The position numbers were made by a program, and so were the translations under genes. Shown here piece after piece: positions 18,422 to 63,780 of a stretch of DNA of 64,000 bases (its first letter is position 1; each line of letters begins with the position of its first letter). The DNA is taken from the NCBI RefSeq assembly GCF_019469205.1, contig NZ_CP048265.1, positions 186,001 to 250,000 on the forward strand, written 5' to 3'. The notes under the pieces were generated by a model, which ran no database searches, was not told the DNA's origin, and saw nothing but the letters and a program-made list of their open reading frames with translations. The stretch comes from Gilliamella sp. ESL0405 (GTDB lineage Bacteria > Pseudomonadota > Gammaproteobacteria > Enterobacterales > Orbaceae).

Positions 18422-18434
18422 CTAAATTTATTTG

Positions 18435-18520
18435 TAAACCCGCTGTTTGAGTATCCTGAAAACGGGCTTTTCAGTATGGTGGGTTTGCTGAACATTAACA
18501 ATAAAGGAGTGCATAGTGGC
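18435..18520 (+). promoter_or_regulatory. Alpha operon ribosome-binding site RNA (S4-binding pseudoknot)
   Basis: The segment CGCTGTTTGAGTATCCTGAA (18441-18460), then AACGGGCTTTTCAGTATGG, closely matches the enteric alpha operon leader. There ribosomal protein S4 traps the ribosome on a double pseudoknot that includes the rpsM start. The GTG start at 18516 and the spacing are also conserved. S4-mediated translational repression of rpsM, rpsK and rpsD is therefore expected. Confidence 0.85.
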
Positions 18521-18872
18521 CCGTATAGCAGGCATTAACATTCCTGATCAACAACATACAGTAATTGCGTTACAAGCAATTTATGGTATCGGTAATACTC
18601 GCGCTAAGACAATTTGTGCTCAAGCGGGTATTCCTGAACATGTTAAGATCAGAGAACTATCTGAAGATCAGATTGAAAAGTTACGTGAAGAAGTCGCTAA
18701 ATTCACTGTAGAAGGTGATTTACGTCGTGAAGTAACTATGAGTATCAAGCGTTTATTAGACCTTGGTTGTTATCGTGGCATGCGTCATCGTCGTGGACTT
18801 CCAGTCCGTGGTCAACGCACTAAGACTAACGCTCGTACCCGTAAGGGACCGCGTAAGCCAATCAAGAAATAA
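18516..18872 (+). CDS. rpsM: 30S ribosomal protein S13
   Basis: 118 residues (E. coli 118), starting with GTG as in enteric bacteria and preceded by [27 protein letters not shown] start, helix-two-turn-helix region and the basic [20 protein letters not shown] tail are all typical. First gene of the alpha operon, translated from the S4-binding leader. Confidence 0.99.
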
Positions 18873-22841: not shown

Positions 22842-23510
22842 TTAAATCCATCCTCGTTGTGCAAAAGAAACGTATTCACCTTTCCCAATGACAATATGAT
22901 CGATTACCCGAATATCAATTAACTCACAAGCTTGCCCTACCTTTTTTGTGACAATAAGATCAGCTTGACTTGGCGTGGCTATACCAGCCGGATGATTATG
23001 CGCTAAAATGATTGCCGCCGCGTTGTGTTGTAATGCTCGTCTAGCCACTTCACGAGGATGCACTTCAACACAATTATAGGTACCGGTAAACATCTCCTCT
23101 GAGGTGATAACGTGATTTTGATTATCTAAAAATATCACCATAAAAACTTCTCGATCTTTATTTGCGAGACGACTTGCCAAATAGTGATGGGTTAATGTTG
23201 GCGAAGTCAGCGGATTTTCGTTTGTCATTTTCACTTTAAGATAGCGATGAGATAGTTCAACAACTGCTTGTAACTGTGTATAGGTTGCGGTACCTACCCC
23301 ATGTTTGTGGCAAAAGTCTTTGTGGCTTGCATTCATGAGGTTATAGAACGAGCCAAATTCATTTAACAGTTTTTGTGATAACTCTAAAACTGGTAATTTA
23401 CGGGTGCCGGTACGTAAAAATATTGCAAGTAGTTCTGCATCACTTAATATTTCAACACCGTATTTTAATAGCTTTTCACGAGGCATTAATGTTGGAACGG
23501 GCACTGACAT
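22842..23510 (-). CDS. radC: RadC family JAB-domain protein
   Basis: 222 residues (E. coli 222). An N-terminal helix-hairpin-helix-like region (residues 1-90, MPREKLLKYGVEILSDAELLAIFL) precedes a JAB/MPN metalloprotease-like domain with the JAMM motif HNHPAGIATPSQAD at about residues 171-184. The name comes from a repair phenotype later attributed to another gene, so the physiological role is unclear. An unusual 13-bp repeat array lies just upstream. Confidence 0.95.
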   Translation of the reverse strand: MSVPVPTLMPREKLLKYGVEILSDAELLAIFLRTGTRKLPVLELSQKLLNEFGSFYNLMNASHKDFCHKHGVGTATYTQLQAVVELSHRYLKVKMTNENPLTSPTLTHHYLASRLANKDREVFMVIFLDNQNHVITSEEMFTGTYNCVEVHPREVARRALQHNAAAIILAHNHPAGIATPSQADLIVTKKVGQACELIDIRVIDHIVIGKGEYVSFAQRGWI

Positions 23511-61307: not shown

Positions 61308-63442
<2,135 letters not shown>

Positions 63443-63500: not shown

Positions 63501-63521
63501 TGCAGGGTAACTTACCCTGCA
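63501..63521 (+). terminator. Terminator after obgE
   Basis: Perfect 8-bp stem TGCAGGGT (63501-63508) / ACCCTGCA (63514-63521), loop AACTT, then CTTATCTTAATTT. It lies about 60 bp after the obgE stop. Confidence 0.75.
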
Positions 63522-63622: not shown

Positions 63623-63655
63623 TTGCTTTTATTAATGAGAATGATTATCATTCAA
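63623..63655 (+). promoter_or_regulatory. Promoter and Fur box of the RyhB-like RNA
   Basis: -35 TTGCTT (63623-63628), 17-bp spacer, -10 TATCAT (63646-63651). A Fur box at 63637-63655 (GAGAATGATTATCATTCAA) matches 14 of 19 consensus positions, with all of the core AATGAT-x-ATCATT, and covers the -10 box. Fe-Fur should therefore block transcription when iron is ample, as at ryhB in E. coli. Confidence 0.85.
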
Positions 63656-63657
63656 TT

Positions 63658-63754
63658 GTACTTTGTTAGAGAGTTGAAAGACTTCTGAAAAAGTATGACA
63701 TTGCTCACATTGCTTCCAATGTTTGCCAGCCTAGCCAACTATGCTGGCTTTTTT
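63658..63754 (+). ncRNA. ryhB: RyhB-like small regulatory RNA
   Basis: About 97 nt. The core GACATTGCTCACATTGCTTC (63697-63716), then C, is identical to that of enteric RyhB. It is followed by a GCCAGC (63725-63730) / GCTGGC (63743-63748) terminator stem and TTTTTT, a tail suited to Hfq binding; E. coli RyhB ends in the same GCTGGC-U style. The 5' part can form a bulged stem. RyhB is made under iron shortage and, with Hfq, shuts down mRNAs of iron-using proteins. The 5' end is predicted from the promoter. Confidence 0.88.
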
Positions 63755-63780
63755 ATTATGTATGGTGAGTTAATCGCACT

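Follow-up and report, generated by a model that had tools for sequence, protein, structure and literature searches.

A probable RyhB orthologue at a fixed location downstream of obgE in Gilliamella and other Orbaceae

The ryhB locus of Gilliamella

The window analysed here is a stretch of 64,000 nt from Gilliamella sp. ESL0405 (contig NZ_CP048265.1, positions 186,001 to 250,000 of the forward strand). Close to its end lies the gene for the Obg/CgtA GTPase, obgE (62273..63442, + strand; TIGR02729, 494.9 bits), the upstream neighbour of a small RNA gene of about 98 nt on the same strand (63657..63754), which was assigned to ryhB on the basis of Rfam family RF00057, our own covariance model R1 and its retention in 42 Orbaceae genomes. 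The closest named relatives of this obgE, at four loci with 93-94% identity, are those of Gilliamella sp. App4-10, G. apicola ESL0177, Gilliamella sp. Pas-s25 and G. bombi, in agreement with the Orbaceae origin that had been proposed from the letters alone. A perfect 9-bp inverted repeat, TGCAGGGTAACTTACCCTGCA, is located at 63501-63521, 59 nt past obgE, and is perhaps the obgE terminator, with a short T run. Elsewhere in the window, positions 18432-18548 match the Alpha operon ribosome binding site (RF00140, 97.1 bits).

The sequence-only reading of this region had named RyhB from a 20-nt core match and had proposed a cmscan search, and both the identification and the search held up. RF00057 matches the window at 63689-63756 with 57.0 bits, above its gathering score of 55 (E 6.1e-8), and a search of the whole Gilliamella genome with the same family returned this one match. 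The longest exact identity with E. coli RyhB comprises 22 nt (GACATTGCTCACATTGCTTCCA, from 63697), and the conserved pairing core GACAUUGCUCACAUUGCUUCC is exact at 63697-63717. Allowing up to three mismatches, the window contains this 21-nt core a single time, against 0.00 occurrences expected from 100 shuffles. The 5′ end of the gene is a prediction from the promoter and from conservation and is uncertain by a few bases. Taken together, 63657-63754 of the plus strand very probably encodes the RyhB orthologue of Gilliamella and the Orbaceae. As judged from sequence, the gene is well verified and of an ordinary kind, namely a RyhB of the Orbaceae at a new, fixed location.

Promoter elements and Fur box

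A −35 element TTGCTT (63623..63628, +) and a −10 element TATCAT (63646..63651, +) are predicted ahead of ryhB with a spacer of 17 nt. The pair had been pointed out earlier and is present, though as a weak match to the consensus, graded so because a generic sigma-70 scan of the window did not list it (63623-63651). Its expected frequency of 0.09 in the window is no promoter test, since the pattern was tailored to the site. Among the Orbaceae copies inspected, similar elements (TTGCTT, TTGATT and others) precede the Fur box.

The predicted Fur box, TGAGAATGATTATCA (63636..63650, +), lies on top of the −10 element, as had also been described, and agrees at 14 of 15 positions with TGATAATNATTATCA, the 7-1-7 Fur motif used for scoring. 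With up to one mismatch it is the sole match in the window (0.01 expected by chance), and at its own quality (14/15) the putative box exceeds chance; with up to two mismatches, the window contains two matches of the motif compared to 1.02 expected. A Fur box occupies the equivalent place in all 42 Orbaceae copies, its end lying 38-52 nt upstream of the core.

Secondary structure and the pairing core

The predicted RNA contains three helices. The 5′ hairpin (63658..63696, +), which lies beyond the Rfam model, was drawn from single-sequence folds and from covariation, and the middle hairpin (ACATTG-CTTC-CAATGT, 63707..63722, +) from the minimum-energy fold. The third is the hairpin of an intrinsic terminator (63725..63754, +) with a GCCAGC (63725-63730)/GCTGGC (63743-63748) stem and a tail of six T residues (63749-63754), just as had been read from the sequence initially. 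A terminator was detected in all 42 Orbaceae copies, and such a U-tailed terminator is the usual Hfq-binding 3′ end of RNAs of this kind.

The three-helix structure was evaluated on 37 distinct aligned sequences obtained from the 42 copies. In this alignment 95.5% of the cells are paired and 11 pairs have changed on both sides; the structure-wide covariation score was reached by none of 500 shuffles. Double-sided changes occur in 7 of the 12 pairs of the 5′ hairpin and in four pairs of the terminator, counts that lean towards the 5′ hairpin since it was chosen from single-sequence folds. In this alignment, then, the predicted 5′ hairpin outside the Rfam model covaries. RNAalifold, run unaided, did not propose this hairpin because its loop lengths vary, favouring a small alternative pairing that runs across the core. 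The middle hairpin has six pairs, five of which never vary among Orbaceae, so it has no covariation support.

The target-pairing region is a frozen core of 26 nt, ATGACATTGCTCACATTGCTTCCAAT (63695..63720, +), which is unchanged in 40 of the 42 Orbaceae copies and includes an imperfect tandem repeat (ACATTGCTC/ACATTGCTT). In the minimum-energy fold the middle hairpin leaves GACATTGCTC (63697-63706) single-stranded, and the unpaired probabilities suggest that both ACATTG copies compete for the middle stem. The two exceptions to the frozen core are genome G043, with one inserted A, and genome G009, where a 9-nt tandem duplication (L122:3283-3390) has produced three ACATTGCTY repeats, not two. This tripled pairing repeat would add a binding register.

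Partners and E. coli target genes

The targets of RyhB in E. coli include sodB, acnB, fumA, sdh, frd, nuo, ftnA and bfr, and iscS, cydA, erpA, cysE, msrB and fur are linked to RyhB in the same organism. The Gilliamella genome was queried once with fragments of 17 E. coli proteins; a single search of one genome is not proof of absence. Hfq (91% identical to the E. coli protein over query residues 1-69), Fur (73%), IscR, IscS, CydA, CysE, ErpA and MsrB were found, together with a superoxide dismutase (SOD), an IscA-like protein and a distant IscS relative. The E. coli fragments of AcnB, FumA, SdhC, FrdB, NuoB, FtnA and Bfr gave no match in the genome, and SdhA was matched weakly, at 26%. The single SOD shares 69% identity with the manganese-type SodA of E. 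coli and 43% with SodB, and no sodB was found in this genome. Exactly one SOD match was obtained in 40 of 44 Orbaceae genomes, and the starts that could be read (27 of 30 loci) are all of the SodA type by eye. The Gilliamella gene for the SodA-like enzyme (G000:C1:94149-94754) has the ribosome-binding site GGAGTATCC, which is not complementary to the RyhB core; in many relatives the corresponding site is GGAGCAAT, which is. Several of the best-known E. coli RyhB targets were therefore not found in the one genome searched, and iscS, cydA, erpA, cysE, msrB and fur remain.

Conservation and location within the Orbaceae

RyhB matches with E ≤ 0.001 were obtained in 42 of 44 Orbaceae genomes (34 of the 44 over the Rfam cut-off) and in all 39 whose completeness is 90% or more; the two genomes without a match are 67% and 81% complete. 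A second match in G043, within a DeoR-like ORF, was removed as a chance hit before counting. In all 42 copies the RNA follows obgE on the same strand, directly adjacent in 40 and past one ORF in two; the sequence-only reading had suggested looking for it there in related genomes. In E. coli, ryhB sits between yhhX and yhhY, so the remark that the location differs was also correct. Genes on the far side of ryhB vary among the copies read. In two loci of genus g2 (L013 and L117, from G001 and G002), ORFs that resemble nuoJ, nuoK and nuoL by eye follow ryhB directly and on its strand, 0.3-3 kb past it, whereas nuoB was not found in the Gilliamella genome examined.

The missing E. coli targets raise the question whether ryhB is a relic, present but no longer of consequence: acnB, fumA, sdhC, frdB, nuoB, ftnA and bfr are unmatched, sdhA has only a weak match at 26%, and the SOD resembles SodA more than SodB. 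A relic would be expected to decay, but 40 of 42 genomes retain the 26-nt core together with the promoter layout, Fur box, hairpins and terminator while the flanks diverge, and six RyhB-linked genes, from iscS to fur, are still in the genome. We consider this explanation improbable. The constant position after obgE on the same strand could instead mean that the element acts mainly in cis, as an obgE 3′ UTR or a regulator of obgE, and resembles RyhB by descent only. However, the RNA has its own predicted promoter and Fur box between obgE and its 5′ end, an opposite-strand ORF separates the two genes in G041 and G042, and the inverted repeat at 63501-63521 lies 59 nt past obgE, all of which makes a mainly cis-acting role very improbable. 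The reading as a RyhB orthologue is retained below.

Distribution outside the Orbaceae

Model R1 was built from the 42 Orbaceae copies, including that of Gilliamella itself, and spans 63657-63754 in the window. It finds the window, the four Gilliamella obgE loci and, among 601 kb, E. coli ryhB (36.3 bits). R1 gave no match on 38 obgE loci of other families, and on a further 38 obgE loci the sole listed match (17.6 bits, E 0.95) was upstream of obgE. An obgE-downstream RyhB was accordingly seen in 0 of 76 non-Gilliamella obgE loci, two of which (L054 and L109) extend for less than 250 bases past obgE. One of the loci retrieved with obgE (L087, CABDVE010000001.1) is titled Pseudomonas stutzeri NCTC11607, and its ObgE, 71% identical to that of Gilliamella, ranks among Pasteurellaceae; the label may be wrong.

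The converse comparison started from RyhB. Under strict filters, 110 of the 295 genomes sampled from the order had a RyhB match, 22 of the 110 being Orbaceae. No obgE was found near RyhB in 37 RyhB-match loci of other families (30 with flanks of ~1.5 kb and seven with ~5 kb), and yhhX and/or yhhY lie beside RyhB in 12 of them. Two weak matches among the 37 (L416 and L417) lack the core at up to three mismatches. In two loci of family f193 (L419 and L420, from G421 and G445), a second RyhB-like core ending in TTGCTTTT is present 179 and 202 nt past the first; a Fur-box-like sequence precedes these copies by eye, and Rfam gave one match per genome. A class-wide Rfam search returned 2 of 369 genomes (Gilliamella itself and one below the cut-off), but the order was sparsely represented in it and the filters were strict, so that it is no evidence of absence. 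Because the arrangement was seen neither in the 76 non-Gilliamella obgE loci nor in the 37 RyhB loci of other families, the obgE location is, in the sample examined, a feature of the Orbaceae.

The sequence-only reading had also considered that an iron-sparing RNA outside the classical enterics may be undescribed. This stands in part: in the open-access PMC literature searched, we found no co-mention of RyhB with Orbaceae or with Gilliamella, nor of Gilliamella with both 'small RNA' and 'iron'. RyhB outside the classical enterics, on the other hand, is already known. Since the gene passes the Rfam threshold, automatic annotation may already list the Gilliamella RyhB.

Comparison with known RNAs

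The Gilliamella RNA shares with E. coli RyhB (RF00057, b4451) the 22-nt core, the GCCAGC/GCTGGC terminator and a similar length (95 nt annotated in E. coli). It differs in the sequence of its 5′ hairpin, in the 6-bp middle hairpin, which is absent from the minimum-energy fold of E. coli RyhB, in its position downstream of obgE, and in its genomic background, in which several targets of E. coli RyhB were not found. RusT is an iron-responsive RNA of Caulobacter. It resembles RyhB in action and has another sequence, and the same holds for IsrR of Staphylococcus, NrrF and PrrF. IsrR is treated as an iron-responsive RNA in the part of PMC12607789 available to us, and NrrF and PrrF are named as such in the available part of PMC4144887. 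According to the latter, E. coli RyhB also carries a Fur box in its promoter, as in Gilliamella. RyhB homologues of Aliivibrio and Vibrio, other relatives that likewise lie outside the classical enterics, are discussed in the accessible portion of PMC5511505, which gives a 43-fold increase of RyhB in an Aliivibrio fur mutant. HrrF, from the related family Pasteurellaceae (Haemophilus), is a Fur-regulated RNA of ~97 nt that is located between pmbA and hpt and has, according to its authors in the excerpt of PMC4144887, no sequence similarity to RyhB; the Gilliamella RNA, in contrast, follows obgE and carries the RyhB core. That iron-responsive RNAs without RyhB similarity exist, HrrF among them (PMC4144887, in part), leaves room for a convergent RNA of the HrrF, NrrF or PrrF kind merely resembling RyhB, but 22 identical nucleotides, an over-threshold covariance score and the recovery of E. 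coli ryhB by the Orbaceae-built R1 largely refute this idea, which we regard as scarcely credible.

Candidate targets of the Gilliamella RyhB

The 9-nt core complement RAGCAATGT occurs at 59 places in the genome, two of them within ryhB, and all 59 were read. Among these exact complements, only hemN provides a convincing start-codon site in an iron enzyme. Its start region, AGCAATGTCA (in context, AAAGCAATGTCA), forms a 10-nt perfect complement across the start codon, in the register of E. coli sodB. The gene was identified by TIGR00538 (541.8 bits over the part scanned), and its start is the first in-frame start codon, with none upstream in frame; no clear Shine-Dalgarno sequence was found before it. 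In the predicted joint fold the hairpins of RyhB are kept and the single-stranded linker pairs with the hemN start.

Across the family, hemN scores over the family cut-off in 42 of 44 genomes, and 20 of 37 distinct start windows (from 42 start regions) contain an exact 8-nt core complement. Dinucleotide-shuffled cores gave a mean of 2.0 such windows and reached 20 in 2 of 2000 cases, a comparison to be read with the facts that hemN was picked after reading the 59 genome sites and that the 37 windows are related to each other. The same 8-mer is rare in the start windows of other genes (obgE 1/33, iscR 0/27, iscS 0/29, sodA 0/22, smrB 2/9, rpmA 0/6 and nth 0/2). By genus it was found in 18 of 33 hemN loci in g1, 1 of 2 in g2, 2 of 4 in g3, 0 of 2 in g4 and 0 of 1 in g5, so that the complement recurs in three of the five genera in spite of divergence in the sequence around it. 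The 17 windows without the exact 8-mer include all of g4 and g5 (three loci); the g5 gene, from G043, shows a bulged pairing at −22.0.

Duplex energies did not single out hemN: mean z values were −2.4 for hemN, −2.6 for sodA, −1.7 for nirD and −1.7 for iscS. The duplex of E. coli hemN with E. coli RyhB scored −25.9, and E. coli genes taken as non-targets scored like some targets (sdhA −23.2, miaA −17.6), which is why energies alone were not trusted. Shine-Dalgarno sequences pair with the RyhB core by nature. Pairing of iscS at its Shine-Dalgarno site in many genomes is suggestive only, and iscS is a possible target. The sodA gene, which pairs in the same way in many genomes, was rejected, the exact 8-mer being absent from all 22 windows, and so was nirD, which looks good in Gilliamella but has the 8-mer in 4 of 21 distinct windows, that of Gilliamella included. 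A 21-nt complement allowing G-U pairs was dropped as well (27 places, mostly G-rich, one being ryhB itself). Among ~70 genes of the window, the lowest shuffle z (−8.5, at −21.9 kcal/mol) belongs to an ORF that is RadC-like by eye (22842-23510, minus strand), in a scoring that used a crude gene-start caller and duplex energies that ignore accessibility.

On these grounds hemN, which encodes a radical-SAM Fe-S enzyme of haem synthesis, is the best of the predicted RyhB targets and, by sequence, the most likely one. In the part of PMC7145675 available to us, the E. coli hemN 5′ UTR fragment was the only one of six that was not Hfq-enriched, and the haem genes hemH and hemB are said to be RyhB-regulated in the available part of PMC12607789. 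No action of RyhB on hemN is reported in those portions of the two papers.

Proposed mode of action and implications

By analogy with RyhB elsewhere, from which the mechanism is inferred, Fe-Fur bound to the box over the −10 element would block ryhB transcription when iron is plentiful. Under iron shortage the RNA of ~98 nt would be made, stop at its own terminator and bind Hfq, and its core GACAUUGCUC would block iron-using mRNAs by pairing with their ribosome-binding sites or start codons.

The core is frozen even though the genes sought for FeSOD, the TCA cycle, complex I and ferritin were not found in the genome examined; other mRNAs would therefore have to constrain it. A rewired RyhB regulon in Gilliamella, in which such mRNAs, with hemN as the best candidate and iscS, for Fe-S assembly, as a possible second, hold the core constant, is a tentative proposal that we rate as possible but rather doubtful. 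If it is true, RyhB would act as a brake on haem and Fe-S synthesis more than on respiration. The Orbaceae in this respect offer a natural test of what conserves the sequence of a small RNA after the loss of some of its best-known targets. The finding itself brings a family of insect-gut bacteria into the range of a textbook regulatory RNA, whose very probable orthologue there has a fixed location different from that in E. coli.
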